IMG/VR virus record: IMGVR_UViG_3300046368_000671
Span: 1-36,931 of that record
Strand: one strand, 5' to 3'
Length of the DNA stretch: 36,931 nt
Source: a virus
Position 1 is the first letter of the stretch. The number at the start of each line of letters is the position of its first letter. The position numbers and the translations under genes were made by a program. The notes beneath the pieces are model-generated. The model did not search any database. It saw only the letters and a list, made by a program, of their open reading frames with translations, and had not been told where the DNA came from. Positions 14,341 to 36,834 of this stretch are shown here, in pieces.

Positions 14341-14364
14341 TTTGATTAACTTACTTCTTTTATA

Positions 14365-18784: not shown

Positions 18785-19672
18785 TTAATTACTTAAAGGT
18801 GCTTTAATTGCTGGTTGTGATTGATATCCGATAACTTCGTAATCAAACTCACCATGTAAAATATCTACATTTGATACATCCACATATGGTAACTGAAAAG
18901 ATTTTCTATTTCTTTGTTCTTCAGCCTGTTCTAAATGATTTAAATATAAATGAGTATCTCCTAAGTTTCCTATTAACTCACCTGGTTCTAAATTTGTTTC
19001 GTTACATAGTAAAAGTAATAACATTCCATAAGATGCAATATTAAATGGTAATCCTAAGAATGTATCAACACTTCTCTGATTCCATAGTAGTGATAATCTA
19101 CCATCTTGAACATAACATTGAAATCCATAGTGGCAAGGTGGAAGAACTACGAGAGGTAGTTCACTTACGTTCCAAGCCGATACCATTAATCTTCTACTAT
19201 CAGGATTCTCTTTTATATTTTTAATTAGTTCTTTGATTTGGTCTACACCACCTTTGTTTATCTCACCTGCAACTGGTGCCCACTTTCTCCATTGTTTACC
19301 ATATATTGGTCCAAGTTCTCCATAGTTTCTTGCGAACTTCCAATCTGATTTTATTTTTTGTATAAACTCTTTTTGAGTAAGGTCATCTTTATGTGAATAT
19401 GCTTTATAAGCATCACCATCCCAAATATGACAATTGTTATCAACTAAGTATTTGATGTTAGTATCTCCTTTTAGAAACCATTTAAGTTCTGTCATGATTG
19501 ATTTGATTGCCATCTTCTTTGTTGTAAGAAGTGGAAACCCTTCACTCATCTTATGTCTTATTTGTTTACCGAAAACAGATTTGGTTCCTGTTCCAGTTCT
19601 ATCGGTTTTTTCTTCACCATCTAATATAATATCTTGAAGTAAATGCTGGTACTGTAAATCTAAGTTATTCAT
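18785..19672 (-). CDS. thyA: Thymidylate synthase
   Basis: 295 residues, the standard ThyA fold. KTDRTGTGTKSVFGKQIRHK at the N-terminus (folate/dUMP Arg loop), PLLTTKKMAIKSIMTELKWF, the active-site segment LPPCHYGFQCYV (catalytic Cys at about 193), and RSVDTFLGLPFNIASYGMLL, followed by GDTHLYLNHLEQ. It makes dTMP from dUMP with methylene-THF for phage DNA synthesis. The start has no leader: the -7 box ends 5 nt before the ATG, and no later Met precedes the conserved DRTGTGT region, so the mRNA is probably leaderless. It is the first gene of a unit leading to pspC-like, metK and the sulfotransferase-like gene. Confidence 0.97.
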   Translation of the reverse strand: MNNLDLQYQHLLQDIILDGEEKTDRTGTGTKSVFGKQIRHKMSEGFPLLTTKKMAIKSIMTELKWFLKGDTNIKYLVDNNCHIWDGDAYKAYSHKDDLTQKEFIQKIKSDWKFARNYGELGPIYGKQWRKWAPVAGEINKGGVDQIKELIKNIKENPDSRRLMVSAWNVSELPLVVLPPCHYGFQCYVQDGRLSLLWNQRSVDTFLGLPFNIASYGMLLLLLCNETNLEPGELIGNLGDTHLYLNHLEQAEEQRNRKSFQLPYVDVSNVDILHGEFDYEVIGYQSQPAIKAPLSN

Positions 19673-19710: not shown

Positions 19711-20187
19711 TTAAATTAAACTATTTTTTAATTCTATTTCAATATTTTTGTTTTTGTTAATCAAATAGTAATATTCTCCATTTGATTTTTTTGTTTTTAT
19801 TTTTTTATTTAATGTTGATGTATCAAACTTACATCCTTCATCATAACCAAATCTTATAACTGATTTATCTTTTGAAAAGTTTGGTACATTAGATGGCCAT
19901 GGGTCTTGATAAAATACTTTATGTTTTACTTTCACTCCTTTCAATAAAAGTATTTGTTGTTCTTGTGTTGGATATGAATCAGAATGAGGTTCTTCTTCAG
20001 TTCTAAAAACCATTACTATATCTGTAAACTCATCGTTAATATAGTTTATAATACTACTTACAACAGAATTTGATATTTCTGAATTAATATGTAAACTCAT
20101 CATACCCTCATCTACAATTACTTTACAAACAATATATAAATTATCTTGTAATTTTATTTTATCTACTACGTCTTTAAGTTCTTTCAT
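19711..20187 (-). CDS. Hypothetical protein at the end of the glycan cassette
   Basis: 158 residues. The N-terminal half is predicted alternating helix/strand (LYIVCKVIVDEGMMSLHINS, then SSIINYINDEFTDIVMVFR). The second half contains DPWPSNVPNFSKDKSVIRFG and a Lys/Asn-rich C-terminus. No signature identifies the family; the pattern FYQDPWPSNVP is unusual and could mark a binding loop. It starts by an ATGA overlap with the methyltransferase gene, so it is translationally coupled to it and may act with it. It is the last gene before the thyA promoter. Confidence 0.7.
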   Translation of the reverse strand: MKELKDVVDKIKLQDNLYIVCKVIVDEGMMSLHINSEISNSVVSSIINYINDEFTDIVMVFRTEEEPHSDSYPTQEQQILLLKGVKVKHKVFYQDPWPSNVPNFSKDKSVIRFGYDEGCKFDTSTLNKKIKTKKSNGEYYYLINKNKNIEIELKNSLI

Positions 20188-20882
20188 TTTAATGGTTTAG
20201 ATGCTTCAATAAAAATAGATTCTAAATTCCTTTGTTTTATTTTTTCAGAAGGTAATACATTTTCAATATTTTCTAAATCATATAAATTTCCTTCTGAGTG
20301 TTTACATTTTTTAACATTAGTAAATCCAACTTCTTCTAATTCAAGTTTGAGTGATTCAAAATCCCACATCCACTTATGGCCCCAATTATAAATCATTGAG
20401 TTAAATATTTGTATATTAGTTTTTAAATAATCCCTTTCCTTATACAAATAGTTTTCCCAATAATCTTCATCTAAAGATTTTTTATATTCACTAAAAAACT
20501 TTTTATCTTTATTTTTATAAATCTTTTCTATCCAAATAGATACATCAGGACACACAATTCTAATTGTATTATTGGGAGATAAAATTCTAAATGATTCTTT
20601 TAAAAACTTTCTACCTTCTTCGTATGATAAATGTTCTATAAAATGAGATGAATATAAATTTTTTACAGATTCGTTTTCAAATGGTAACCCATCATTTACA
20701 TTATGATTAATTACAAATCCACCAAGATTATGTTTATAAATTTTAATATCATTTTGTACATCAACCTCAACCAATCCATTGTAATTACCTCCCCATATTG
20801 TAATCCCAAGCCAATTTGGAATCATTTCAAAATGAGAACATCCTATGTTTATATTTTCGTATCCTTTAATAATCCCAGGCAT
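20184..20882 (-). CDS. SAM-dependent methyltransferase (type 11-like)
   Basis: 232 residues. NINIGCSHFEMIPNWLGITI stands where the SAM-binding 'vDiG' loop is expected. DGLPFENESVKNLYSSHFIE, then HLSYEEGRKFLKESFRILSP and GNTIRIVCPD-like text (NNTIRIVCPDVSIWIEK), is the classical methyltransf_11 pattern 'lPf.d.sfD.v.s...lEHl......l.e..RvLkpgG.l.i..Pd'. In phages and polysaccharide clusters these often methylate sugars. It sits between the GT25-type gene (17 nt overlap) and the hypothetical gene (ATGA). SAM may come from the phage MetK. The acceptor cannot be determined from sequence. Confidence 0.85.
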   Translation of the reverse strand: MPGIIKGYENINIGCSHFEMIPNWLGITIWGGNYNGLVEVDVQNDIKIYKHNLGGFVINHNVNDGLPFENESVKNLYSSHFIEHLSYEEGRKFLKESFRILSPNNTIRIVCPDVSIWIEKIYKNKDKKFFSEYKKSLDEDYWENYLYKERDYLKTNIQIFNSMIYNWGHKWMWDFESLKLELEEVGFTNVKKCKHSEGNLYDLENIENVLPSEKIKQRNLESIFIEASKPLK

Positions 20883-21588
20883 TTAATTTTTGTTTTGTAA
20901 ATTTTGGAGGATTTTTTCTTTGTATTAAAGTAAAGTTTCCTCTTTGTATAAATGGGTGTGGTAAAAAATCATGTATATCTAATACGTCTTGATTTAAAGA
21001 TATATCAGCTGGCATTATTCCATTTGATTTAACATCTTCAATTATTTTTTTAGCTCCTTGTGGGGTTATCAAATATGAATGAGCTCCGAATAACCATTGA
21101 GTATTACAATCACACATATCAGGTGCCCAATCTACATCTGAATTATATTCTTCAAAACACTCAGTACAAACTTTTCTTTTCTTAAAGTTGTTATCATCTT
21201 CAATATCCCAATCTCGTTTACCCCAATTTGGTTTTCCTAAATTTAATAAATCTTCATTAAAGTTTTGAATAGAATCAATAGTAAATGATTTAATTAACAT
21301 TGCATCATGTTCAAATATCATTATGTTTTCATTTAGTTCTAAACACTTTTCCCATAATTTAAAATGTGAAATAAATGTTGCAATTTCACTACTGTAATAT
21401 CCTCCACCAAATCTTGTAATATTTTTTATTTTAAAATCATTATCGATAAACTCTTGCCAAACATCATACCTATCACATCCTTCAAATAATATTGGTTCAA
21501 TACCAACAACCTTTAAATCATGTTGTGTTTTCTTTGCCTCATCAACACTTACTTTAGATTTAGGTAGATGTATTATATATCCTTTCAT
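20866..21588 (-). CDS. Glycosyltransferase family 25-like, with Cys-rich insertion
   Basis: 240 residues. YIIHLPKSKVSVDEAKKTQH at the N-terminus and SSEIATFISHFKLWEKCLEL, then NIMIFEHDAMLI (about 89-100), match GT25/LPS beta-galactosyltransferase-type enzymes: 'sh..lw......iifEDDa', with EHDA in place of EDDA. GAHSYLITPQGAKKII follows, as in GT25. Between them lies a CTEC...CDC cluster (C141, C144, C159, C161) that could bind zinc and is not usual in the family. It probably transfers a sugar to a glycan or protein. Overlaps are ATGA with the PhyH-type gene upstream and 17 nt with the methyltransferase downstream. Confidence 0.85.
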   Translation of the reverse strand: MKGYIIHLPKSKVSVDEAKKTQHDLKVVGIEPILFEGCDRYDVWQEFIDNDFKIKNITRFGGGYYSSEIATFISHFKLWEKCLELNENIMIFEHDAMLIKSFTIDSIQNFNEDLLNLGKPNWGKRDWDIEDDNNFKKRKVCTECFEEYNSDVDWAPDMCDCNTQWLFGAHSYLITPQGAKKIIEDVKSNGIMPADISLNQDVLDIHDFLPHPFIQRGNFTLIQRKNPPKFTKQKLNAWDY

Positions 21589-22340
21589 ATAAATCTTTTT
21601 GTAGGGTTAATAAATCTATCACTAAAAAACCATTTCCAAGTATCACATTTATGTTTACTATTTTCATATGGAAGATTACCAATGGGTATAGATGTGTATT
21701 GGGTAGACCAGGCTCTTCTATCTCCATCAGTTAGGTTTGGTACTGAGTAGTGAAGAGTTCTTCCGTTAAACACCACCATATCACCTTTCTTGGGATATAA
21801 CCACTCCCATCCTTTACCAGGTGGAGTATCTTCATAATCCAGCCAAAGATTTTCTTCAGTTACTCTCTCTTCTCTAATATCTTGGAATCTAATTGCACCA
21901 TTCTTATCTGTAAAATCATCAAGTATCCAATAGAAGTTTATGTGATGAAAATCTAAATTAGGTTGTGGTCCATATTCAGTATCAGTATGTAACATAAACT
22001 TATTTGGTTCTTGTTTATATTTGATTACAATTTCATCATTAAAAAAATAGAACTCATCTGATTTGAAGAATTCTTTAGATAAGTTATACATCATATGAGA
22101 TTGATAATACTCTTTAAGTATCGGACTTAAATGAGTTGCCATATCAAATCCCTTCCACCAAATTCCATTACCGAAATCCTTTTCATCTCCATTCGATATG
22201 TTATTTTCATGTCTCCATAAAGCATCCATTCGTACAACTTCGTTTCCTATTATTTCATAATCTGAACTTGGGATTACATTTTTTATATGAGTAAATCCCT
22301 TAGTATAATATTCTTCTATATTTTTATCTAATATACTCAT
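21585..22340 (-). CDS. PhyH-type 2OG-Fe(II) dioxygenase
   Basis: 251 residues. Phytanoyl-CoA dioxygenase-like layout: YYTKGFTHIKNVIPSSDYEI at the N-terminus, FMLHTDTEYGPQP (iron ligands H118 and D120), then a long central strand region, GDMVVFNGRTLHYSVPNLTD (H197 as distal iron ligand) and DRRAWSTQY (R208/R209 for 2-oxoglutarate). Members hydroxylate small molecules, lipids or sugar-linked groups. It is coupled by ATGA overlaps to the GT2-type gene before and the GT25-type gene after, so it probably modifies the same product. It is distinct in sequence from the two shorter 2OG oxygenases in the window. Confidence 0.88.
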   Translation of the reverse strand: MSILDKNIEEYYTKGFTHIKNVIPSSDYEIIGNEVVRMDALWRHENNISNGDEKDFGNGIWWKGFDMATHLSPILKEYYQSHMMYNLSKEFFKSDEFYFFNDEIVIKYKQEPNKFMLHTDTEYGPQPNLDFHHINFYWILDDFTDKNGAIRFQDIREERVTEENLWLDYEDTPPGKGWEWLYPKKGDMVVFNGRTLHYSVPNLTDGDRRAWSTQYTSIPIGNLPYENSKHKCDTWKWFFSDRFINPTKRFI

Positions 22341-23212
22341 GTACTTTTTATAAGTTTATTTATGTATGAATTAGAAGTATCCATATTATATCTGTTATTA
22401 CTTTTTTTGAAGGATAATTTATTTTCAGAAAATCCTCCTTTTAAATGAGTAACAAATGATTTTCCATTTAAAATATATGAATGGTCAATATCCTCTGTTT
22501 CGTAATTTGGATTCTCATAATAAGGCCCTATATGAAATGTTGGTTTTTTTTCTAACAAACACTTTATAGTTGCCCCATGATTAGTATCACCATATCCATA
22601 ATCAACAATATAATCATCAAAGAATTCTTTTTTACAAGCGAAAAAATAAGCATCTGCCATTCCTATTTCTTTTGTTTTTAAGTAACCACCATCATCATGA
22701 GCTATTTCTATATCAATTCCTAAGTTATCAAAAAATTCTTTATTACCTAAATATCCTGTTAGGTTTATTTTTTTTGAATCAATAGTTACATACTCATGAG
22801 TATCCAATAATTCAATTATATCTTCCATCAAATCGTTATGATAAAAAACATCATTGTGTTGTAGGAATATATAATCTCCTTTAGCATGTTCAATACCTAT
22901 GTTGTATGCAGTAGAAACCCACATTGTTAAGTTTTCAAAATCACTAATATTATATTTAATCATTTCTTCCAAAGATATATCTTTTTCTTTTTTGTATTGT
23001 AATCCCTTAACTATTTTTAAGTTAGGCATTTTAATATCAGGAAATGAATTTGTATTATCAACTAATATTATTTCATAAGAATGTTTTGAAAATGTTTTGT
23101 TTATATTTTGTATAGTGAGTATTGTAGTTAATATAATAATATCACTATCTGGTTCTTTCCATTTATATAGATTATCTGTTGTACTTGCAAAGGGTAATAT
23201 AAAACTAACCAT
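22337..23212 (-). CDS. Glycosyltransferase family 2-like protein
   Basis: 291 residues. The GT-A pattern is recognisable: SFILPFASTTDN at the N-terminus, SYEIILVDNTN (about 66-75, the nucleotide-sugar 'VDn.S' segment), TAYNIGIEHAKGDYIFLQHN, then DVFYHNDLMEDIIELLD, where QHNDV replaces the usual DDD, and later YGDTNHGATIKCLLE. Family members add sugars from nucleotide-sugar donors. The metal-binding DxD is altered to HND, as in other phage or viral GT2 proteins, so activity is likely but not proven. It starts within the last codons of the MORN_2 gene (8 nt overlap). Confidence 0.85.
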   Translation of the reverse strand: MVSFILPFASTTDNLYKWKEPDSDIIILTTILTIQNINKTFSKHSYEIILVDNTNSFPDIKMPNLKIVKGLQYKKEKDISLEEMIKYNISDFENLTMWVSTAYNIGIEHAKGDYIFLQHNDVFYHNDLMEDIIELLDTHEYVTIDSKKINLTGYLGNKEFFDNLGIDIEIAHDDGGYLKTKEIGMADAYFFACKKEFFDDYIVDYGYGDTNHGATIKCLLEKKPTFHIGPYYENPNYETEDIDHSYILNGKSFVTHLKGGFSENKLSFKKSNNRYNMDTSNSYINKLIKST

Positions 23213-24053
23213 GATATATTTCTTTAACTAAATTTCCATTCTCATAATACAAACAAGATTTACCAACAAGGTTGCCGTTTTTGAAAGTATTTTCTGATTC
23301 TAAAACTCCATTGTGATGATAATAATTCCAACTTCCTTCCATCTTTTCATTATCATTAAATGTTCCCTTGGTTCTGAGAACTCCTGTTGTATAATATTCT
23401 CTGTAAGTATGTTTGTTGTTAATATATTTCTTTATCCATTTAATTTCTTGTTTCGGATAAAAAGGATAGTATTCAACTTCTTTTATCGTAACACCAAACT
23501 TTTTTAATGTAGTTTTGTAAGTGGTATCATCAAATCTATATTCAACTTTATATTCTAAATTATTTCTTTTCATTGTAAATGATTTTAATTTAGAATTATC
23601 TGTATTGTATTCGTAAGATATATTTTTTAGTACATCAACTTCTTTACAAACATCACCATCTATACTAAAATGTTTTTCGTAGTATTTGCCATGTTTATTA
23701 AAGTATTCTTTTTTTACTATACTTTCGTGATTATAATAATGAACTTCGTTTTTTACTTTTACTTTTACTAATGCACCATTTTTATTATTATAATAAAACG
23801 ATTTATCTTTAGTTTGTTTTTCAACTAAAATTCCATCCTTATTATAAAATAATTTTTCATCACCCTTAGTATGAGGTTGTCCTCCATTAAATATTCTTAG
23901 GTTTTTTGTTTTTAATTTTTTATCAGAATCTTCCTTGGGATTTTTAGATGCCCATTTTTTATAAAGATTCCACCCATCTTCACCTTCGTATATTACAGTA
24001 TTTGTTTCTGTGTGTAAGACACAGTTACTATTATATAAAGTATAATCGTACAT
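23205..24053 (-). CDS. MORN_2 / YwqK-type repeat protein
   Basis: 282 residues. Repeated 'G....YY.NG.l..e..fknG...G' units are clear near the C-terminus: EGSWNYYHHNGVLESENTFK, then NGNLVGKSCLYYENGNLVKE. Weaker units precede them (GDEKLFYNKDGILVEKQ; KSFYYNNKNGALVKVKV). MORN_2 proteins form extended beta-hairpin stacks; bacterial YwqK-type members are abundant in Bacteroidetes and are annotated as antitoxin-like or secreted without firm function. Here it is coupled by TAATG to the helicase gene and by overlap to the GT2-type gene. No signal peptide is visible, so it should be cytoplasmic. It could be a scaffold or recognition module for the modification enzymes; that is speculation. Confidence 0.82.
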   Translation of the reverse strand: MYDYTLYNSNCVLHTETNTVIYEGEDGWNLYKKWASKNPKEDSDKKLKTKNLRIFNGGQPHTKGDEKLFYNKDGILVEKQTKDKSFYYNNKNGALVKVKVKNEVHYYNHESIVKKEYFNKHGKYYEKHFSIDGDVCKEVDVLKNISYEYNTDNSKLKSFTMKRNNLEYKVEYRFDDTTYKTTLKKFGVTIKEVEYYPFYPKQEIKWIKKYINNKHTYREYYTTGVLRTKGTFNDNEKMEGSWNYYHHNGVLESENTFKNGNLVGKSCLYYENGNLVKEIYHG

Positions 24054-27194: not shown

Positions 27195-27502
27195 AACTCA
27201 CATTCTGGCATAAACCAAACGATTAGTATGATTACAATAATAGCGATTATTGTTACTAATACTCTAACTGGTCTTGATTGTTGTTCTTTCCAAGCTTTCA
27301 CTTTTAATCCCCACTTTGTACCAACTCTACCAGCCCAATCAAATCCTCTACCAACTAAATCAAATGGTGGTACTTTTAAAATGGTTAAAAAGAAAATAAG
27401 GAATCCTTCGAATCCATATCCTTCTTGAAACATCATCCATATAGATGCTACTAAGAAGTACCAACCTATATATTTTTGTAAGTGTTGTTTTATTTTATTC
27501 AT
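27188..27502 (-). CDS. 104-residue multi-span membrane protein
   Basis: Hydrophobic segments at about 11-25 (YIGWYFLVASIWMMF), 30-43 (GFEGFLIFFLTILKV) and 81-97 (VRVLVTIIAIIVIILIVWF), with a basic amphipathic loop (GRGFDWAGRVGTKWGLKVKA) between the second and third. The end MPECELC carries two Cys. The N-terminus overlaps uvsE by 8 nt. It could be a membrane-remodelling or superinfection protein; no family is recognised. Confidence 0.72.
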   Translation of the reverse strand: MNKIKQHLQKYIGWYFLVASIWMMFQEGYGFEGFLIFFLTILKVPPFDLVGRGFDWAGRVGTKWGLKVKAWKEQQSRPVRVLVTIIAIIVIILIVWFMPECELC

Positions 27503-28442
27503 AACTTGATGTACTTAATAATCCACTATACTCACACTTATTAGAATTAATAAATGGAAGTATAGATAATTCTTTTGCTTTTGATTCAACCATTACATCT
27601 ACATCATTACCATACAAATCAGGTAACTCATTGATATAATCAGAGTGAGCCTGTGGTTTTAGTTTCTCATTACCTTCATGTAATGCTTTTGATTCAGAGT
27701 AATGAACAATTGGTTTGATATCTTTTGGCCATGTAGAGATTGCCAACTCTAACGCCTCTTGTTCTGATAAACCACCTGTGTTGAACTTATGGTGATGATA
27801 ATCGAATACAATAGGAATACTAATTCTTTCGTGTATGTACATCAAATCTTTTACTGAGTACATAGATGCTTTATCATCATTCTCAACAGTCAATCTATTT
27901 TGTACTGATTCTGATAATCTTTCGAAGTTCTTACAGAATCTATCCATAGCAGATATCTTATCACCATACACACCATTACAATGAATGTTTAGTTTGTTGT
28001 ATGGAGTACGAGATAATCCTAACATATCAAATACTTTACCATGAATTTCTAAATCGGTAATTGTATTCTGTACAACATTTTCACGAGGAGATACGAGTAC
28101 ATTGAAAGGGCCAGGATGTGAGGTAATACGAATACCATTAGTAGTTGCGTATTGTCCACACGCCTGAAGTATTGTTTCAATTCGTTTGTAGTATGGTGAG
28201 TTCTCTATACCATACTCTGAAGCCCATGGAAACATCTCAGAAGATAATCTAAAACATTTGATGTTATTCTCATTGTTCCATTCTAATATAGTGAATAAAT
28301 CTCGTGAGTTTTGTAATCCTAACTCACCAGCATATTCAACACCCTTCTCCAAGAAGGTTCTCTTAATCATTGAACGATTAGTGGTTACTTTAGGTTTTTG
28401 TTTACCCAAAGTCATGTTAATACAAGCGTATCCTAAATTCAT
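27495..28442 (-). CDS. uvsE: UV damage endonuclease (UvdE/UvsE)
   Basis: 315 residues, typical UvdE length. LGYACINMTLG at the N-terminus, NIKCFRLSSEMFPWASEYG, ITSHPGPFNVLVSPRENVVQ, NIHCNGVYGDKISAMDRFCK, RLTVENDDKASMYSVKDLMY and PIVFDYHHHKFNTGG give the full series of metal-ligand motifs (H, E, H, D, H...) of the TIM-barrel UVDE family. It incises DNA 5' of UV photoproducts and other lesions, which suits a phage of sunlit water. It is the first gene of the longest operon in the window, with a promoter ending 30 nt upstream. The leader is A-rich with no strong SD. Confidence 0.95.
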   Translation of the reverse strand: MNLGYACINMTLGKQKPKVTTNRSMIKRTFLEKGVEYAGELGLQNSRDLFTILEWNNENNIKCFRLSSEMFPWASEYGIENSPYYKRIETILQACGQYATTNGIRITSHPGPFNVLVSPRENVVQNTITDLEIHGKVFDMLGLSRTPYNKLNIHCNGVYGDKISAMDRFCKNFERLSESVQNRLTVENDDKASMYSVKDLMYIHERISIPIVFDYHHHKFNTGGLSEQEALELAISTWPKDIKPIVHYSESKALHEGNEKLKPQAHSDYINELPDLYGNDVDVMVESKAKELSILPFINSNKCEYSGLLSTSSYE

Positions 28443-28472
28443 ATTATATCTTTTATAGTTTATTTACTTAAG

Positions 28473-28503
28473 TAAATATACGAAAAAAAATTGATATATC
28501 CAA
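28473..28503 (-). promoter_or_regulatory. uvsE: Bacteroidetes-type promoter of the uvsE operon
   Basis: Minus strand: TTGG (28503-28500), 20-nt TTG-to-box spacing ending TTTTTTTCG, then TATATTTA (28480-28473). It lies in the only gap between uvsE and the EF-hand membrane protein gene. Confidence 0.85.
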
Positions 28504-28508
28504 GTCTT

Positions 28509-29864
28509 TTAGTAAGTTTTTTTAGAAAAATCAGTTGGGTACTGTTCTTTTAATTCATTGAGTCTGGTTTGAGAACCCCCTCTACTTTGAATCCAATGTT
28601 GTGATGCTCTTTGATTGTTAATCCATCTTTCTCGTTTACTCCAATCAAACTTAGGGTGTTGCCAATAATCCAATCCTTTATAAACCCTTTTCCATCCTCC
28701 TTGATTTTCATACCAATCATTATATTCTTCTTCAGTTAATATTCCATCACCATCAGCATCTGCTTCTCGTTCTTCTTCGGTTAGAGGTGGAGAAAATCCT
28801 CTTGCTTCATCAGGTAGTATTTCTTCATCGAATTCATCTTGTTTCTTTTGAAACTCATTGAAAGATTGTTCTTTATCATTTGTCATTCCAGCAACTGTAA
28901 ATAGTTCATCACTATCATCACTTTCATATGAATCCTGTCTTTCTAAGAAATCTTTTACATCAGGTTCGTTAGCCCAATCTTCTTCTTGCTCAGTTAAATC
29001 TTCATCTTCATCTTCATCTGGTATTTCATCATATAACTCTCTCTTACGAATTACTTTATCTTTTTTAACAATTCCCCTATCAACCAATACTGCGTTGTTA
29101 AAAGCAATTACAAGTGCAACGGCCAATGGGTCAAATACAAAAATAATAATTAGAATAAACCAGTTAATAATCTGGTCCATAGGTCTATCTAATAATCCAC
29201 TAAGATATTCAAGTGGTCCTAATTCGGATGATACACCTTCCATTGATTCTAAATCTAATATTTTTAACTGAATGGATTGTAGTGAATCGGATGCTACTTC
29301 TCTTTTCGCTTGAACAGATTTACGATTCTGTTCTTCAACTTCGATACGTTTTTGTGCCAACCTAAGTTCGGAAGTAGAGATGGTTGTTCTAATGCCCCCA
29401 ACCACCGAGGTGTCTCGTACTTGGATTGATTGAGATTTCGCATTAGAAAGAGTACCAATGTTAGTAGAAATTCTTTTAAGTTCTTCATCATATCTTATTA
29501 CATCATCACCCCAAAACTGTTCTTTCTGTTCTAAGAATGCTAATTGTTTTTCTTTTATACTATACTGATTAAATGTATCTTGAAATGCAGATGTTAAGAA
29601 TCCATATATACCTAATGATGTTATAAGGATTAGGATAACTACTGCAATACTTAGATAGATTCTAAATGATTTGTTTATCCTATCCCAATAGTTGTAAAGA
29701 TAACCAGCGGTAATTAGTTTTGCTAGTTCCAATGAACTTGCCATTATTATTACAGAGAATGCAGCTCCAGCAAATAGTTTACTTAAACCACTAACTGAAA
29801 AGAATGCAGCATTGAAAGCTACGAATAGTGCTGATAAACCTAATAGTAAAGTTCTGAATTTCAT
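28509..29864 (-). CDS. Large multi-span membrane protein with coiled coil and EF-hand
   Basis: 451 residues. Hydrophobic spans lie at about 5-22, 31-45, 68-92 and 232-258 (INWFILIIIFVFDPLAVALV). Between spans 3 and 4 is a ~130-residue coiled coil (EQKEQFWGDDVIRYDEELKR; SELRLAQKRIEVEEQNRKSV). A very acidic cytoplasmic region follows (DEDEDEDLTEQEEDW), and then a canonical EF-hand loop D369-A-D-G-D-G-I-L-T-E-E-E380, ending with a Trp-rich basic tail. From memory, similar membrane proteins with 'PMDQIINWF..IIFVFDPLAV' occur in marine T4-like phages without known function. It is second in the unit after the 59-residue gene. Calcium binding is predicted by the loop; the role is unknown. Confidence 0.85.
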   Translation of the reverse strand: MKFRTLLLGLSALFVAFNAAFFSVSGLSKLFAGAAFSVIIMASSLELAKLITAGYLYNYWDRINKSFRIYLSIAVVILILITSLGIYGFLTSAFQDTFNQYSIKEKQLAFLEQKEQFWGDDVIRYDEELKRISTNIGTLSNAKSQSIQVRDTSVVGGIRTTISTSELRLAQKRIEVEEQNRKSVQAKREVASDSLQSIQLKILDLESMEGVSSELGPLEYLSGLLDRPMDQIINWFILIIIFVFDPLAVALVIAFNNAVLVDRGIVKKDKVIRKRELYDEIPDEDEDEDLTEQEEDWANEPDVKDFLERQDSYESDDSDELFTVAGMTNDKEQSFNEFQKKQDEFDEEILPDEARGFSPPLTEEEREADADGDGILTEEEYNDWYENQGGWKRVYKGLDYWQHPKFDWSKRERWINNQRASQHWIQSRGGSQTRLNELKEQYPTDFSKKTY

Positions 29865-29874
29865 TGTAAGTTCC

Positions 29875-30054
29875 TTATCCTCTTTCTACAACCTCTTTGA
29901 TTTCCTCAAGTACTTTAATTATTTGTTGTAGATAAGAATCCGCTGTTTTAGAATCAGCAGGTCTTTCACCTGTAACCATTTCTTTTACCACTTTTGATTT
30001 GGTAATACATGATTCGATGTTGTTCGTAACCCTATTTTTATACATTTCTTTCAT
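29875..30054 (-). CDS. 59-residue helical hypothetical protein
   Basis: ATG at 30054, stop TAA at 29875. Translation MKEMYKNRVTNNIESCITKS, then KVVKEMVTGERPADSKTADS, ending YLQQIIKVLEEIKEVVERG. It is helical and fills the 279-nt interval between hsp20 and the EF-hand membrane gene. It follows a candidate late promoter element (30079-30087), and the stop is 10 nt before the next ATG. The codon pattern and charged helices look coding. Function unknown. Confidence 0.68.
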   Translation of the reverse strand: MKEMYKNRVTNNIESCITKSKVVKEMVTGERPADSKTADSYLQQIIKVLEEIKEVVERG

Positions 30055-30078
30055 ATATGATATATTTTGTTGTACTAC

Positions 30079-30087
30079 TATAAATAT
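30079..30087 (-). promoter_or_regulatory. Candidate late promoter element ATATTTATA
   Basis: Nonamer on the minus strand ending 24 nt before the ATG at 30054, just after the hsp20 terminator, where a new transcript must start. Same spacing as the elements at 8267 and 10528; no TTG at the -33 distance. Confidence 0.4.
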
Positions 30088-30095
30088 TAAGATAT

Positions 30096-30126
30096 AAAAA
30101 AAGGGAATTTTTCAATCCCCTTTCTT
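30096..30126 (-). terminator. Rho-independent terminator after hsp20
   Basis: Minus-strand RNA: AAAGGGGAUUGAAAAAUUCCCUUUUUUU, a stem of AAAGGG(G)A against U(U)CCCUUU with an A-rich loop, followed by a run of Us. It lies 18 nt after the hsp20 stop codon. Confidence 0.85.
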
Positions 30127-30143
30127 AGTTTATGATATGAGTT

Positions 30144-30515
30144 TTAATAAGAAATTTTTAAGGTCTTTGCCTTCTTGTTTACTTTCTTATCAATAAGGAG
30201 AGTGAGTAACCCATTATCGAATTTAGCAGTTGTTTTTGTTCCATCATAATCAGAACCAACTGTTAATACTAAATCAATATCTTTTACAAAACGAGAAGTA
30301 TCTTCTTCTTTTGTAGATTTGATTGTAATTGTTTCATCAGTAACATCTACTGTAATATCTTTTGGATTGTGTCCAATAGTGTTAACTGTAACTTTTTGTT
30401 TACCATCTTCCAATGTTGTTGCTTCAAATTGTGAATTCAATCTATTAGTTGGTTTTGTTGTGTAGATATCCTTAAAGAAGTTATCTACGAAATTTTCATT
30501 AATTGTGTAAAACAT
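30144..30515 (-). CDS. Small heat-shock protein, Hsp20/alpha-crystallin family
   Basis: 123 residues. The alpha-crystallin domain is recognisable: FEATTLEDGKQKVTVNTIGH, then NPKDITVDVTDETITIKSTK, and KFDNGLLTLLIDKKVNKKAK, where 'NGLLTL' replaces the usual 'nGvL.i.ip'. The N-terminal arm is short (about 28 residues). It prevents aggregation of unfolded proteins; Hsp20 genes are a recurrent part of marine T4-like phages, probably aiding virion folding. The gene stands alone with its own promoter (30560-30590), two operator-like palindromes and its own terminator, so it is separately regulated. The leader has an AAGGAA SD-like sequence. Confidence 0.92.
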   Translation of the reverse strand: MFYTINENFVDNFFKDIYTTKPTNRLNSQFEATTLEDGKQKVTVNTIGHNPKDITVDVTDETITIKSTKEEDTSRFVKDIDLVLTVGSDYDGTKTTAKFDNGLLTLLIDKKVNKKAKTLKISY

Positions 30516-30559
30516 AATATTCCTTTTTATTTTAATTAAACATTCACTTATTATAATAC

Positions 30560-30590
30560 CAAATCTATACCATTATATAAAATATGACAA
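30560..30590 (-). promoter_or_regulatory. Bacteroidetes-type promoter of hsp20
   Basis: Minus strand: TTG (30590-30588), exactly 20 nt, then TAGATTTG (30567-30560), a perfect TAnnTTTG. Unlike the other six promoters it lacks TTTCG before the -7 box. The TTG lies inside the palindrome at 30585-30597. Confidence 0.85.
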
Positions 30591-30597
30591 TTTGTCA
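30585..30597 (-). promoter_or_regulatory. Operator-like palindrome 1 (TGACAAATTGTCA)
   Basis: Perfect palindrome about a central base on either strand (arms TGACAA/TTGTCA), extended by one more base pair on each side (30584-30598). It overlaps the -33 TTG of the hsp20 promoter, a position where a bound protein would block polymerase. Confidence 0.75.
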
Positions 30598-30616
30598 TTA
30601 TAATAATCAATAGTTA

Positions 30617-30629
30617 TGACAATTTGTCA
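30617..30629 (-). promoter_or_regulatory. Operator-like palindrome 2 (TGACAAATTGTCA)
   Basis: Second exact copy of the 13-nt palindrome. Its centre is 32 nt (about three helical turns) upstream of the first, and it includes the TGA stop of the neighbouring gene. Two copies on the same face of the helix suggest cooperative binding. Confidence 0.7.
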
Positions 30630-30959
30630 GTTATCAATTTCAACCTTTGTCAATGAACGATATAAAATTTCTAATTCTTCTTCGGTTGAACACAACCCCA
30701 AACCAAATAAATCAGCAATCTCTACAAAGTATTCTCCTTTTTTAATTCCAAGTTCATCCCACTCATCATCTGCAGAAGAAATTAAAACAGGTGAATTTTC
30801 ATCAGGATTATCTTTCGGAAGGGGAAGTATATAATAACTATATGTGTTTGGTTCTTCGTCAGTACCTCCTTCTGATTCTGTTATTTTTTCCCACCCTTGT
30901 CTTTCAAATGTTTTTTTGGTGATTGGTATGAAAGGAAACTCAATAAAATCTTTAACCAT
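30627..30959 (-). CDS. 110-residue acidic hypothetical protein
   Basis: Begins on a TAATG overlap with the lipoprotein gene upstream. FIEFPFIPITKKTFERQGWE at the N-terminus, an acidic middle (SEGGTDEEPNTYSYYILPLP), then SSADDEWDELGIKKGEYFVE and ADLFGLGLCSTEEELEILYR. Strongly acidic with many aromatic residues, resembling small phage regulatory or DNA-mimic proteins in composition only. The last codon is part of the second hsp20 operator-like palindrome. Function unknown. Confidence 0.72.
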   Translation of the reverse strand: MVKDFIEFPFIPITKKTFERQGWEKITESEGGTDEEPNTYSYYILPLPKDNPDENSPVLISSADDEWDELGIKKGEYFVEIADLFGLGLCSTEEELEILYRSLTKVEIDN

Positions 30960-31944: not shown

Positions 31945-33171
31945 TTAGTATTTTTTTCTTATTAATTTATTGTTTTCATTTAATCCCCACCCATTAAAAG
32001 ATGGTGATGTTTGTTGATTCTGTTGTATTTGAAAGTTAACACCTTCTATCATTAGCTCATCGACTCCATCACCATCCATATCTATAAATTTAATCCAATC
32101 AATATCGTAATGGTTTGATACTAAATTACTTTCGTTATCAAAGATATCAGAGGTTCTGTTTACAAAGTTTTTATATCCATTATTTTCATAATACTGAATT
32201 ACATATTTACTTTGATAATTAAAACTACTGTTTATAAATAAATCTAAATCACCATCATTATCATAATCTATAACTGAAAAATCAAGTGTGATATTAGTTC
32301 CATTGTAATCAGAATCTAATACATATGACTCTGTAAACATATCATCATCGCCTGTTCCATAGTGGATAACATGGGTGTTTGATTGCTGTGAAGATGTAGT
32401 TCCATCCATAGATATATGATATCCCATTAATATATCAACATAACCATCATTATTTATATCAATGATTTCTTGTGAAATTCCTTTAGTACTATATGATTGA
32501 TTATACTCATCCCACTCTATCATTGTAGAGGGTAAGGATTTTTTGTTAAATGTGAAATCACCATTACCCATGAAAACATATCCTTTACCTCCTGCAAAAA
32601 TATCTATGTTACCATCATTATCTATATCACCAGCAGTTACACTATGTACCCAATCTCTTTCACCATTAAGAAGTGTAAACTTTGTAAATGTACTTCCATT
32701 GTTTCTTAATACAAATAATCCTCGTGGACTTGTTGTATCATCTGGTGCTTCACTATAAATTATATCCAATAAACCATCTTTGTTTATATCTGATGTTATT
32801 ATTTTTCTAACTCCACTAACTACACCACTATCATTATCTATGTTTAAAATAGATGATATGTAATATCCATTTCCATCGTTGGTATATAACTTAATATAGT
32901 TTGGAGAATTTTCATCTTTACCAATAATATCAACATACCCATCATTATTAAAATCACCATATGCTATACCAACAACCAACATACCATTATCGGATAAGTT
33001 TGTAGTATGGTAATTATAATATCCATCATTGAGTTCATGAGTTTCAAATGATGTATCATATATTTTAAATTCAGATGTAGGTGGGTTTGATTCGAAATCA
33101 ATTGATACAAGTTCTTCCTTCTCACATCCTATAAGAAGAAATGAGAGGAGAACAATAAGTAGGTACTTCAT
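31945..33171 (-). CDS. FG-GAP/VCBS six-repeat beta-propeller lipoprotein
   Basis: 408 residues. Signal peptide MKYLLIVLLSFLLIGCEKEE with lipobox LIGC (lipidated C16), so it is exported and anchored. Six calcium-binding FG-GAP motifs follow at regular spacing (54-64 residues): DFNNDGYVDI (73-82), DINKDGLLDI (128), DIDNDGNIDI (182), DINNDGYVDI (238), DYDNDGDLDL (302) and DMDGDGVDEL (364). Six or seven such repeats form an integrin-like beta-propeller that binds ligands or surfaces. Such proteins are abundant in Bacteroidetes but unusual in a phage. It may have come from a host and may mask or mimic a receptor; inference. It follows the 58-residue gene by 4 nt. Confidence 0.9.
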   Translation of the reverse strand: MKYLLIVLLSFLLIGCEKEELVSIDFESNPPTSEFKIYDTSFETHELNDGYYNYHTTNLSDNGMLVVGIAYGDFNNDGYVDIIGKDENSPNYIKLYTNDGNGYYISSILNIDNDSGVVSGVRKIITSDINKDGLLDIIYSEAPDDTTSPRGLFVLRNNGSTFTKFTLLNGERDWVHSVTAGDIDNDGNIDIFAGGKGYVFMGNGDFTFNKKSLPSTMIEWDEYNQSYSTKGISQEIIDINNDGYVDILMGYHISMDGTTSSQQSNTHVIHYGTGDDDMFTESYVLDSDYNGTNITLDFSVIDYDNDGDLDLFINSSFNYQSKYVIQYYENNGYKNFVNRTSDIFDNESNLVSNHYDIDWIKFIDMDGDGVDELMIEGVNFQIQQNQQTSPSFNGWGLNENNKLIRKKY

Positions 33172-33175
33172 AGGG

Positions 33176-33352
33176 TTATGAATCTTCTTTTATATGAGAC
33201 CTAAATCCTAATACTGGCACATGACCTGTGATTTCAACTTCTCTTTTTCTAATAAATTGTTTAGATACTTTAAGGGTTTCTAAATCAGTTTCATTCATTA
33301 CCCAATCTTTGAATAGGTAAGTTAATAGTTTACTCTTAATAGCTTTAATCAT
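33176..33352 (-). CDS. 58-residue basic hypothetical protein
   Basis: ATG at 33352, stop TAA at 33176. Translation MIKAIKSKLLTYLFKDWVMN, then ETDLETLKVSKQFIRKREVE, ending HVPVLGFRSHIKEDS. It is the first gene after the promoter at 33388-33418 and leads by 4 nt into the FG-GAP lipoprotein gene. The mixed amphipathic helix and regular coding pattern support it. No membrane span. Function unknown. Confidence 0.68.
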   Translation of the reverse strand: MIKAIKSKLLTYLFKDWVMNETDLETLKVSKQFIRKREVEITGHVPVLGFRSHIKEDS

Positions 33353-33387
33353 AATTTTAATTTTTATATTTTAACTTATTTACATAG

Positions 33388-33418
33388 TAAATATACGAAA
33401 AATATTTGATATGACCAA
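33388..33418 (-). promoter_or_regulatory. Bacteroidetes-type promoter of the FG-GAP lipoprotein unit
   Basis: Minus strand: TTGG (33418-33415), 20-nt TTG-to-box spacing ending TTTTTCG, then TATATTTA (33395-33388). It lies between the radical SAM gene and the 58-residue gene; the box ends 35 nt before the ATG. Confidence 0.85.
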
Positions 33419-33440: not shown

Positions 33441-34466
33441 TTAAATAAGAACTTTTTTTGTAGTAATTTTATCATGAAATGAGTGAACCACTTTTGGTTT
33501 TCCATGAATTTTGTTTAGCTCTTCTAAAAACTGTTGATATTCTGAATGAGATGGATTGTGTATTTCTTGTTCTTTAAAATTATTTTGTTGTTCAAACTCT
33601 CCCCACTCTACAATAGGATTAAAAAATATAGTAAATCTTTTATTTATTCCTTTCATTATAGAATGTATTAGATTATAAAAGTTTTCCATATCCTTATAGT
33701 TTCTTTGTTGTACTACAAATGAAAATTTAATAGATTTAAGAGTTGGTATTGTTTTTATAAATTCTAAGTTATTCATTAACCTATCCCAATCACCCCCAAG
33801 TCTAACAATATCATAAACTTCCTTTGTACCAGCATCTATTGATATTTCACATTCATTTATATATTTTTGAATTGGGTTTATTAAGTTCCAAGTTTTTTCA
33901 TTCCAAAGTGTACCATTTGTGTGTAAGAATATTGATTTCAATTTTGGAAACTTTGTTGAATCAAACTCTCTCATAAACCTCATCATTGTTTTTGAATAAA
34001 AAGGTTCTGCTCCTCCACATAAGGTTATACCTTGTAATGTATCTCCCATTTGTTCTACAACCTTATCAAGAGTTTTATCCATTTCAATTCTTCGTTCTCC
34101 TACAAAATTTATAAATTCACTTCTACATGATGGGCATCCAAGATTACAAGATAAATCAAATCCAAATACAACCCAATCTGGTTTTGGGTTTTTAAATATA
34201 GGATGTGTTTTTAATTTAAAAGTAGGTGGTATGTTTCCTTTATTAAATGAAGATAAGTGAGGACAAAGATTTTCCTTACAAAACTTATAAGAACCATCCA
34301 ATATTGATTCTCGAATTTCTTTTGATTTTTTATTATAAAAGTTTTCTTTAAAGTTATCAGAATCTTTTACATCAGTAGGTAACCAACCAGGACAACAAAG
34401 AAACTGACCATCGTTTGTAATCTCAGAATAGTTAAATGGTGCACTACATGCATAATCTTTATTCAT
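33441..34466 (-). CDS. Radical SAM enzyme with N-terminal SPASM-like Cys motif
   Basis: 341 residues. The N-terminus ACSAPFNYSEITNDGQFLCC followed by PGWL gives a Cys pattern (C7, C24, C25) of the kind seen in SPASM/twitch auxiliary-cluster regions, with more Cys near KFCKENLCPHL. The radical SAM core has FGFDLSCNLGCPSCRSEFIN, the CxxxCxxC that ligates the 4Fe-4S cluster, followed by ITLCGGAEPFYS (the GGE-like SAM-binding motif as GGAEP), SIFLHTNGTL and CEISIDAGTKEVYD. Members with an auxiliary cluster modify peptides or sugars. Coupled by ATGA to the 2OG oxygenase upstream, which suggests a shared substrate. SAM could come from the phage MetK. Confidence 0.9.
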   Translation of the reverse strand: MNKDYACSAPFNYSEITNDGQFLCCPGWLPTDVKDSDNFKENFYNKKSKEIRESILDGSYKFCKENLCPHLSSFNKGNIPPTFKLKTHPIFKNPKPDWVVFGFDLSCNLGCPSCRSEFINFVGERRIEMDKTLDKVVEQMGDTLQGITLCGGAEPFYSKTMMRFMREFDSTKFPKLKSIFLHTNGTLWNEKTWNLINPIQKYINECEISIDAGTKEVYDIVRLGGDWDRLMNNLEFIKTIPTLKSIKFSFVVQQRNYKDMENFYNLIHSIMKGINKRFTIFFNPIVEWGEFEQQNNFKEQEIHNPSHSEYQQFLEELNKIHGKPKVVHSFHDKITTKKVLI

Positions 34467-34939
34467 AATAATGTTGTTTCCTTTTCTACTTTTCTATAAC
34501 CAAGATATAATCCATATAAATAATCTGATTTTACTGGTGGTCGTTCATGTTCAATAGTACCTCCTTCAAAAAAGTAACCATCTCCCTTTTGTAATAAAAT
34601 TTCAGTTGGTATATCTTTGTAATAAATAAGTAGTGGGTTTGGAATGTTATCAGATTGTCCTAACATAATACTCATTGCACAATCTGCCTGACCATCCCAA
34701 TGTTTATGTAGTACATTTCCTTTATAATATTTTCTAATCCATGCCTGATGTGGTTCTAACTTGTAATCAATATTTGATTCAACCAATGGTGATAACTTGT
34801 AACATAAATCCATAGCTAAATTTGAATTATGTATTATATTAGAACCTACTACTTGTTTATCTTTGTAGTTATAATTTGAATCGAAATAATCGATAAAGTT
34901 AGTACACTCTTCATATGTTAATATGTTTTCAAATCTCAT
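34463..34939 (-). CDS. 2OG-Fe(II) oxygenase (prolyl-4-hydroxylase-like), paralogue
   Basis: 158 residues. AWIRKYYKGNVLHKHWDGQA holds the H80-x-D82 iron ligands, and FFEGGTIEHERPPVKSDYLY the distal H131 and nearby basic residues (R133, K137) for 2-oxoglutarate. It is paralogous to the enzyme at 16305-16802 (shared RKYxKGN, HERPxxKS and final Tyr). ATGA overlaps couple it to the SGNH-like gene upstream and the radical SAM gene downstream, so it most likely acts in the same pathway. It may hydroxylate the peptide or glycan that the radical SAM enzyme acts on; inference. Confidence 0.88.
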   Translation of the reverse strand: MRFENILTYEECTNFIDYFDSNYNYKDKQVVGSNIIHNSNLAMDLCYKLSPLVESNIDYKLEPHQAWIRKYYKGNVLHKHWDGQADCAMSIMLGQSDNIPNPLLIYYKDIPTEILLQKGDGYFFEGGTIEHERPPVKSDYLYGLYLGYRKVEKETTLL

Positions 34940-35553
34940 AACATAGTATTTGAGTTCTTTATTCTATTAATAATTATTTCTGATTTTTTCATATGAGCAT
35001 TCCAAGAATAATGTCCATCTTTTATTTTAAACTTTGTATCTTTTGCTATGGTTTCCAAACTAAACTTTGGATACCAAAAATCAGTATGTTTCCAAAATAA
35101 AGTATTTATATTTTTTGATTTTAAAAACTCAAGAATAGATTTAAACATTTTCTGATAATATTCTAAATGATATTTTTCGTTTGGAACAATCTCATCTAAT
35201 ATAAAATTCAGAGAACTAACATCTCCATTTTTTTGGTATTGTAAATCAATATCATTAATTACATTTACAACATTTCCTTTTTCAAATCTTACAATTCTAT
35301 GTGGTCTTGTATCTCCAACAACAATCCAATCACCTTCTTTAAACTTATCAAGATTACATATCAACTCATACAATATATGTTGATTTGAATTACCTCCCCA
35401 TGCACAGTTCTTTTCAATTCCACCTAAGTATTCTGAAACAATCTCTGTCCATCTTTTACATCCATCTTTATATGTCATCTCATAATATGAATCTCCCTTG
35501 TGGCAGTTATCACCACGAGTAAAAGAATCTCCAAAGAACCAACAAGTTTTCAT
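34936..35553 (-). CDS. SGNH/GDSL-hydrolase-like protein
   Basis: 205 residues. CWFFGDSFTRGDN at the N-terminus (block I, nucleophile S10), AWGGNSNQHILYEL (block with G54 and N55 as oxyanion-hole candidates), WIVVGDTRPHR where block III is expected, and KDGHYSWNAH near the C-terminus with D179 and H181 as the likely catalytic pair. SGNH proteins are esterases or O-acetyl-hydrolases/transferases acting on lipids or glycans. Relatives in phages accompany glycan-active genes. ATGA overlaps on both sides. It is a divergent partner of the next SGNH-like gene. Confidence 0.78.
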   Translation of the reverse strand: MKTCWFFGDSFTRGDNCHKGDSYYEMTYKDGCKRWTEIVSEYLGGIEKNCAWGGNSNQHILYELICNLDKFKEGDWIVVGDTRPHRIVRFEKGNVVNVINDIDLQYQKNGDVSSLNFILDEIVPNEKYHLEYYQKMFKSILEFLKSKNINTLFWKHTDFWYPKFSLETIAKDTKFKIKDGHYSWNAHMKKSEIIINRIKNSNTML

Positions 35554-36176
35554 AATAAATCTGTTTTAGGTGGGTGAGGAGTTTCATCACCTAATCTGTT
35601 TAAAAGTATTTTATAAATATCATAACATCCTTTTGTACCAGGATGCCAATCTCCTTTTGTCTCTCCATTGGATTCATTTTCATCGTCAAGAGTAGATACT
35701 TGTATTAACTCACTAAACTCATCTGATTGTTTATGGAATAAAGTATTCCAAGTAACAAATATGGGTGAATAATTAATTAATAATTCTTTTAGTTTTTTCA
35801 TAAACTTTACTTCATCCCCCAATCCATTTTTTTCCCAACCAACAGCTCTATCTACTTTTATCTTTTCTAAAGTAGGTATTCTATCTTTTTCAAGTAAATC
35901 ACCATAATACCACCATCTACCTTTTTTCTTTGGTTTTGTTTTTCCTCTATAAAGATTTTGTATTCTTGATGGGTCTGACCAATATATTATTATCCTATCA
36001 CCATCTTTATATTCTGGTATATTTCCTACTTGAAGAATTATTCCTATGTTATCACATCCTCTTATTGCAAGTCTTATTACATCATAATGTTCTTCTAAAT
36101 AATCAGTCCAATGGTAAGTAGGAATATCCCAATCCACAAAAGAATCACCACATATGAATAATCTTGGTTTAGGCAT
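35550..36176 (-). CDS. SGNH/GDSL-hydrolase-like protein
   Basis: 208 residues. RLFICGDSFVDWDIPTYHWT at the N-terminus (block I, nucleophile S12), then RLAIRGCDNIGIILQVGNIP (block II/III region with N43) and GDWHPGTKGCYDIYKILL at the C-terminus (D176-x-H178, the usual catalytic DxxH-type end). It is paired with a second SGNH-like protein downstream. By family it would remove or transfer acyl groups. It starts 8 nt inside phoH and ends by ATGA. The surrounding 2OG and radical SAM genes suggest a joint modification pathway. Confidence 0.8.
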   Translation of the reverse strand: MPKPRLFICGDSFVDWDIPTYHWTDYLEEHYDVIRLAIRGCDNIGIILQVGNIPEYKDGDRIIIYWSDPSRIQNLYRGKTKPKKKGRWWYYGDLLEKDRIPTLEKIKVDRAVGWEKNGLGDEVKFMKKLKELLINYSPIFVTWNTLFHKQSDEFSELIQVSTLDDENESNGETKGDWHPGTKGCYDIYKILLNRLGDETPHPPKTDLL

Positions 36177-36834
36177 AAGAGGCTAATAATCTTAATATCT
36201 CATCCAATGATTCGTGTCTATGGTTATCCATTAAACTTACAGCATATACATACTTAGATTCTTTAACCTTTGGTACTTCGTGTATTGCTGAATCATTTGC
36301 AAACTTTAAATCAATTTGATGTGGGTCTCCTGTAAGAATCATAGTTGATTTTTTTCCTAACCTACCTAACACCATTCCAAGTTGTTGTTTAGTTAAGTTT
36401 TGAAACTCATCTACAATCACACAAGCATTATCAAATGTTCTACCTCTAAAGTGAGATAGTGATACTAACTCGATGTTTTCATCTGATTCCATCTTTTGTA
36501 AGATAGTTGGTTTATTATAAACCTTTCTCATATTAGAACGAATAGGTACTAACCATGGCTCCATCTTCTCATCAAGTGAACCTGGTAGATATCCATTATC
36601 TTCGTTTGATACTGTTGGTCTTGTTATAACGATTTGGTTTATCTTACGAGTAAAAAACATATCCAATGCAATCTGTACTGCAAGAAGTGTCTTACCACTA
36701 CCCGCTTTACCCATTATAAAATTATATGGGTGATATAAGATATTAGTCTTTGCCATCTTTTGCTCTTCAGATAGAGTTATTGAAAACTTTATTTTACCTT
36801 TCGGTGCTTGTTTATTAACATTTTGTGTTGCCAT
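36169..36834 (-). CDS. phoH: PhoH-like ATPase
   Basis: 221 residues. Walker A GKAGSGKT (about 42-49), then ITRPTVSNEDNGYLPGSLDE, Walker B VIVDEFQNLTKQQLGMVLGR (about 132-151) and TGDPHQIDLKFANDSAIHEV are the PhoH signature. PhoH is among the most frequent host-like genes in marine phages; its role in infection (RNA metabolism, phosphate response) is not settled. The start is supported by an AAGGAA sequence 5-6 nt before the ATG. The gene follows an incomplete coding frame by 1 nt and overlaps the SGNH-like gene by 8 nt, so it belongs to the same transcript as the downstream cassette. Confidence 0.95.
   Translation of the reverse strand: MATQNVNKQAPKGKIKFSITLSEEQKMAKTNILYHPYNFIMGKAGSGKTLLAVQIALDMFFTRKINQIVITRPTVSNEDNGYLPGSLDEKMEPWLVPIRSNMRKVYNKPTILQKMESDENIELVSLSHFRGRTFDNACVIVDEFQNLTKQQLGMVLGRLGKKSTMILTGDPHQIDLKFANDSAIHEVPKVKESKYVYAVSLMDNHRHESLDEILRLLASYA

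Follow-up and report, generated by a model that had tools for sequence, protein, structure and literature searches.

A putative glycan-tailoring cassette of radical SAM, 2-oxoglutarate oxygenase and paired SGNH-like genes from a variable T4-like phage island

The 36,931-base virus record IMGVR_UViG_3300046368_000671, analyzed here over its whole length and referred to as the window, carries on its minus strand a run of five genes in the order phoH, SGNH_A, SGNH_B, 2OG and rSAM (Table 1). The last four, at positions 33441–36176, encode two SGNH-like proteins, a 2-oxoglutarate (2OG)-Fe(II) oxygenase-like protein and a radical S-adenosylmethionine (SAM) enzyme, here called rSAM, and form the cassette that is the subject of this report. 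An earlier reading made from the sequence alone had described these four genes as coupled by overlaps, and three 4-bp overlaps indeed join them; phoH and SGNH_A overlap by 8 bp. The window phage is assigned to the T4-like myoviruses on the basis of its baseplate and PhoH matches. Its host probably belongs to the Bacteroidetes, as judged from a PhoH protein whose best match among phage records is that of Flavobacterium phage immuto (48%), and from lipoproteins and AT-rich promoter-like motifs. The cassette is best explained as a modular glycan-tailoring unit within a variable island of this phage, a reading to which we assign a probability of roughly 0.6.

The rSAM protein matched PF04055 (E = 2.4e-9) and contains the CxxxCxxC core of the radical SAM superfamily (C107-x3-C111-x2-C114), which was invariant in 45 aligned sequences. 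The sequence-only reading had also pointed to extra N-terminal cysteines, and C7, C24, C25, C63 and C68 proved to be at least 98% conserved in 45 sequences. The spacing C7-X12-G20-X4-C25 matches the first half of the SPASM motif, CX9-15GX4C (PMC6231123), and is followed by C63 and C68, as expected of SPASM/twitch auxiliary-cluster cysteines. In contrast to the BtrN/anSME/MoaA group, the Cys domain of rSAM precedes the barrel rather than following it, and G20 is not invariant. The family NF033640 (N_Twi_rSAM, “twitch domain-containing radical SAM protein”) shares with rSAM an N-terminal Cys-rich twitch-like domain followed by CxxxCxxC, and it aligned with residues 4–321 (E = 7.8e-20); however, the score of 71.3 bits did not reach the curated cutoff of 170 bits, so that rSAM is treated as a divergent relative and is not called a member. 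We know of no function for the NF033640 family. PDB sequence searches with rSAM returned only chance matches and no credible one over the twitch part. Judging from the conserved cysteines, it is plausible that this domain binds one auxiliary, electron-accepting Fe-S cluster.

The proposed identity of the Fe(II)/2OG oxygenase was likewise upheld. Residues H80, D82, H131 and R133, which include the HxD...H facial triad of 2OG-Fe(II) oxygenases, are invariant in five aligned sequences: the window protein, its counterparts in two related contigs (L001 and L066, described below), a paralogue elsewhere in the window, and a cyanophage “ferrochelatase” protein. The protein matched phrog_2954 (Table 1), and no Pfam 2OG family matched it up to an E value of 10. 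The “ferrochelatase” label attached to phrog_2954 was rejected for the oxygenase, as the conserved residues are those of the HxD...H triad; the cyanophage proteins that bear this label (phrog_2954; KU594605 34450–35022) are probably 2OG oxygenases themselves. Those of S-RIM50 and ACG-2014b are 32–35% identical to the window protein over 70–75% of the query and keep HxD...H and HxR. The S-RIM50 gene adjoins another 2OG oxygenase gene but, unlike in the window, no rSAM or SGNH gene is annotated there. The paralogue in the window (E = 8e-20) lies beside a 192-aa gene that resembles sulfotransferase-like genes of related islands.

The other two proteins had been taken for two different SGNH-like proteins. 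Their SGNH-like character is supported by conserved motifs: both contain the block I Ser within G-D-S, the block II Gly (G40 or G54) and the block V Asp/His, spaced D-x-H instead of D-x-x-H, and these residues are kept in relatives at 26–47% identity. SGNH_A is 74% identical to its counterpart in L001 and 47% to that in L066, with its motifs kept, and the motifs of SGNH_B are kept in L065, L066 and L076. Pfam and NCBIfam searches gave no SGNH match for SGNH_A, and the match of SGNH_B to PF13472 was weak and below cutoff (E = 0.051). The two proteins are not unrelated. Since they match each other, weakly in direct comparisons (E = 9e-5 to 0.002) and more clearly in a profile comparison (E = 6e-6, P = 85), they look like distant paralogues forming a tandem pair. 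In a relaxed SGNH motif search, 8 of 582 open reading frames (ORFs) matched, and each of them lies no more than 2.5 kb from an rSAM gene. The rSAM, 2OG and SGNH catalytic residues are retained in the aligned homologues; their loss is what the sequence-only reading had named as a possible objection.

Wider profile scans identified 78 rSAM loci, numbered with the prefix L, of which 41 remained after removal of rSAM proteins that were at least 90% identical; “marine” and “freshwater” were assigned to IMG/VR contigs from gene content and relatives rather than from record metadata. The gene order of the window recurs in the marine contig L001 (IMG/VR 3300049739_000416; 70–82% identical) as phoH-SGNH_A-SGNH_B-[452-aa gene]-2OG-rSAM. 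The inserted 452-aa gene (4154–5512 of L001) is absent from the window and has no above-cutoff family match. Ratios of nonsynonymous to synonymous substitution (dN/dS) against L001 were 0.17 for rSAM, 0.19 for 2OG, 0.24 for SGNH_B and 0.41 for SGNH_A, and 0.09 for phoH, which indicates purifying selection and maintenance of all four cassette genes. Four freshwater contigs, L066–L069, whose rSAM is 45% identical, contain all four families in an altered order, SGNH_A-2OG-2OG-2OG-rSAM-SGNH_B (E = 2e-48 for SGNH_A, 7e-24 for 2OG and 7e-9 for SGNH_B). Other combinations are 2OG-rSAM-SGNH_B (L065, L070–L076), 2OG-2OG-rSAM-SGNH-SGNH (L091) and SGNH-rSAM-PhyH (L014). In the upstream part of L071–L073 and L076, a 2OG gene, a glycosyltransferase-like gene and a 190-aa epimerase-like gene replace SGNH_A and 2OG at the same site. 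The occurrence of these genes singly and unlinked, proposed earlier as evidence against a cassette, was found in part. In the 191-kb record L002, rSAM (60% identical) does not neighbor the other family types, and no SGNH_B or 2OG match was found across the whole record; L080 contains PhoH-rSAM alone. At least 2 of the 41 loci therefore have rSAM without SGNH or 2OG neighbors.

The gene order p110-Hsp20-membrane protein-UvdE is common to the window, L001, L065, L066 and L071–L076, and its first three genes are also found in L080. The contents between PhoH or a Hint protein and p110-Hsp20-UvdE are swapped among relatives, as in phage glycan or lipopolysaccharide (LPS) islands, where a variable block lies between backbone genes. 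Because the upstream contents change while the downstream backbone and rSAM stay, these loci represent one variable island, in which contents are exchanged and rSAM persists. The best reading of this comparison is that rSAM is the persistent member and the 2OG and SGNH proteins are recurrent partners, so that the set is modular and, in view of L002 and L080, not obligate. The island is bordered in L066 (2500–4797) and its relatives by a 620–911-aa protein that starts with MKGTLFSADFV and has a Hint/intein-like C-terminal part; a fragment at 1–1503 of L001 has a similar Hint-like end. After the cassette, the window encodes an FG-GAP repeat lipoprotein, whose equivalent in L001 occupies the same position and has clearly diverged.

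Outside these contigs, a tblastn search of GenBank phages found no close rSAM or SGNH relatives. Weak rSAM relatives are present in KVP40-like phages at a different location, and Pfam did not reproduce the GT1 annotation of the gene next to the KVP40 rSAM. A scan of bacterial genomes for rSAM with narrow peptide patterns found nothing. Several rSAM paralogues stand in tandem or close together in L016, L018, L054, L078 and L090, and a tail sheath gene adjoins in L016 and L018.

Sugar enzymes are frequent near rSAM. Within five ORFs, the 41 loci contained a glycosyltransferase in 18 cases, a 2OG oxygenase in 12 and an SGNH protein in 8, together with a further rSAM (6), a NolO-type carbamoyltransferase (5), an FkbM-type methyltransferase (3) and a sulfotransferase-like protein (2). 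These counts, and the densities given below, are descriptive and not proof. Pfam returned no match for the one sulfotransferase-like neighbor tested. Density was higher near rSAM than farther away for glycosyltransferases (46/345 vs. 10/269, p = 3e-5) and for SGNH proteins (10/345 vs. 1/269, p = 0.03). Among direct neighbors, Pfam recognized GT25 in 6 of 57, as well as GT1, GT2, a rhamnosyltransferase, a sugar nucleotidyltransferase, a polysaccharide deacetylase and methyltransferases; an RmlC-like isomerase, likewise a direct neighbor, and a SIS protein are further sugar-type neighbors in relatives, besides the NolO-type and FkbM-type enzymes. The window also encodes a NolO-type carbamoyltransferase. 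Its GT25, GT2, PhyH oxygenase and methyltransferase genes, at 20–23 kb, lie in a second block of overlapping genes that includes a MORN-repeat-like protein.

What argues for a glycan-tailoring function is that these families are found linked again and again, both among themselves and with sugar enzymes. The sequence-only reading had left the substrate as a peptide, a sugar or a lipid; the sugar-enzyme neighbors in relatives favor a sugar. In the proposed mechanism, rSAM would generate the 5'-deoxyadenosyl radical, an electron would pass to the auxiliary Fe-S cluster at its N terminus, and the enzyme would thereby oxidize or epimerize a sugar carbon, following BtrN-like logic. The 2OG oxygenase would hydroxylate that sugar unit or an adjacent one, and the SGNH pair would take off or transfer O-acyl groups of the glycan. 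The likeliest target would be the host surface polysaccharide during infection, whose alteration would mask the receptor or shut out rival phages, and a virion glycan would be the second candidate. That a phage MetK supplies SAM had been suggested earlier; a MetK-like SAM synthetase is indeed present, approximately 15 kb from the cassette, and its help in supplying rSAM is a guess. A stricter version, in which rSAM, 2OG and the paralogous SGNH pair act sequentially on one surface-glycan unit to produce, by radical chemistry, a sugar modification that host bacteria are not known to make, thereby masking or rebuilding the receptor, is offered tentatively and is considerably more doubtful than the general glycan-tailoring function.

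Several observations weigh against glycan tailoring. The density of 2OG genes near rSAM did not differ significantly from that farther away (16/345 vs. 6/269, p = 0.13), the loci were not fully independent, and the seeds for the family tags were chosen in the course of examining those loci, with glycosyltransferase and sulfotransferase labels that were partly motif-based. No glycosyltransferase lies inside the cassette, and the nearest recognized one is approximately 10 kb away. A conserved block III Asn was not evident at the expected position in either SGNH alignment, AlphaFold models of the pair built from two-sequence alignments had predicted local distance difference test (pLDDT) scores of 39 and 34, and Foldseek with one of these low-scoring models and PDB sequence searches found no credible match. 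SGNH membership of both proteins is consequently a motif-level claim. Finally, many SPASM/twitch enzymes modify peptides (PMC6231123).

The layout of the genes bears on whether they serve one pathway at all. Tight coupling had been taken to imply this, yet 4-bp overlaps occur at 8 of the 48 minus-strand junctions of the window, including the three in the cassette, so that overlap alone is weak evidence for a shared pathway although it suggests co-expression. The island may instead gather independent tailoring enzymes that act on separate substrates and are co-transcribed by chance, as the frequent overlaps, the varied contents among sister phages and the solitary rSAM genes of L002 and L080 would allow. 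Comparative linkage is the stronger evidence and makes this explanation unlikely, in that all four families are re-linked in L066–L069 despite the altered gene order, and an SGNH gene adjoins rSAM in L014, L065, L066 and L091 and lies a few genes off in L054 and L008. The part of the claim that stands is a joint module.

The many peptide-modifying SPASM/twitch enzymes would also fit modification of a virion protein, in which rSAM and 2OG modify a structural protein such as a tail fiber, sheath or collagen-like fiber, with the SGNH proteins serving to trim or protect that protein. Consistent with this, rSAM adjoins tail sheath, collagen-like or tail-fiber genes in L016–L018, L020 and L055. Such adjacency is nevertheless expected, as T4-like marine phages carry a variable island within the structural region (PMC7029224); moreover, the cassette of the window neighbors PhoH and a lipoprotein, and the SGNH and sugar genes would be left unexplained. 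We regard this explanation as quite unlikely.

A promoter-like 14-mer, TTTCGTATATTTAC, helps to delimit the cassette. It has four exact sites in the window, each 5' of a gene start (thyA, UvdE, an NT5C-type nucleotidase and a 58-aa ORF), and seven matches with up to two mismatches, compared with 1.06 expected. Motifs of this type lie on the minus strand at 14364, 16271, 19677, 28472, 31907 and 33387, and the motif is also present in L001. Because a copy follows the rSAM stop and the motif scan of the window found none between phoH and rSAM, the cassette is inferred to be co-transcribed with phoH in a unit that ends at the rSAM-proximal motif; the copy at 33387 probably starts the next transcription unit, and the 58-aa ORF most likely lies outside the cassette. 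This ORF, just 3' of rSAM and conserved in L001, would be the obvious precursor if the genes formed a pathway for a ribosomally synthesized and post-translationally modified peptide (RiPP) or another small molecule. It was rejected in that role, since a promoter-like motif of its own precedes it, its sequence contains no core rich in Cys or Ser/Thr, and no relatives were found in phage records or L002; neither a transporter nor a peptidase was seen adjacent, and a RiPP-type pathway is very improbable. Hypermodification of phage DNA by 2OG, radical SAM, thymidylate synthase, MetK and glycosyltransferases, all present in the window, is hardly credible, as ThyA and MetK are approximately 14–15 kb off, the neighbors in relatives are LPS-type sugar enzymes, and we know of no part that SGNH proteins play in modifying DNA.

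Table 1. Features of the cassette and of other regions of the window.
Feature	Position	Strand	Remarks
PhoH-like ATPase	36169–36834	−	PF02562, 9e-49; same position in L001; first gene of the run
SGNH_A, 208 aa	35550–36176	−	G10-D11-S12, G40, D176-x-H178-P
SGNH_B, 205 aa	34936–35553	−	G8-D9-S10, G54-x-S-N57, D179-x-H181
2OG-Fe(II) oxygenase-like, 158 aa	34463–34939	−	H80-x-D82...H131-x-R133; phrog_2954, 1.3e-15
Radical SAM (rSAM) enzyme, 341 aa	33441–34466	−	PF04055; N-terminal twitch-like Cys domain
Promoter-like motif TGGTCA-N11-TTTCGTATATTTAC	33387–33417	−	Directly 3' of rSAM stop; same site in L001
58-aa ORF	33176–33352	−	91% identical in L001, dN/dS 0.13
FG-GAP repeat lipoprotein	31945–33171		After the cassette
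p110, Hsp20, membrane protein, UvdE backbone	27495–30959	−	Conserved gene order; downstream island border
UvdE endonuclease	27495–28442		Phage-borne
Second block of overlapping genes	19711–24053		GT25, GT2, PhyH, methyltransferase, MORN-repeat-like
Thymidylate synthase (thyA)	18785–19672		
MetK-like SAM synthetase	17373–18332		
192-aa gene	16804–17382		Beside second 2OG oxygenase
Second 2OG oxygenase	16305–16802		Paralogue of cassette 2OG

Related systems are known in part. In pelagimyophages, the variable islands for host recognition contain LPS genes as well as radical SAM cassettes (PMC7029224). The window differs from these pelagimyophage and cyanomyophage clusters in its probable Bacteroidetes host and in the site, which extends from PhoH or the Hint protein to p110-Hsp20, and its rSAM-2OG-SGNH-SGNH set was not found mentioned there (PMC7029224). 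The SGNH pair resembles AT3-SGNH O-acetyltransferases of surface sugars (PMC7448272) and GDSL esterases in the G-D-S Ser, the C-terminal Asp/His and the sugar-related neighborhood of relatives. It differs from them as small stand-alone proteins with D-x-H spacing, no evident block III Asn and no adjacent membrane acyltransferase, and its acyl activity is a prediction. Host-recognition/LPS islands of T4-like phages and twitch rSAM as a named family are thus already known. The defined four-protein set, which the sequence-only reading had not recognized as a described phage system, the paralogous SGNH pair and the recurrence of the set in several aquatic phage contigs were not found described in the literature searched, which left out most subscription journals.

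Twitch-type rSAM proteins, which are usually grouped loosely under auxiliary metabolic genes, recur in the sampled marine and freshwater phage contigs. A four-gene set with recurrent partners makes of them a testable unit, one that points to sugar chemistry and names the enzymes to co-express, and sister phages in which half the cassette is swapped for a glycosyltransferase offer a natural comparison. The cassette could shed light on how phages in aquatic habitats alter surface sugars, and could provide the first substrate for this rSAM family.

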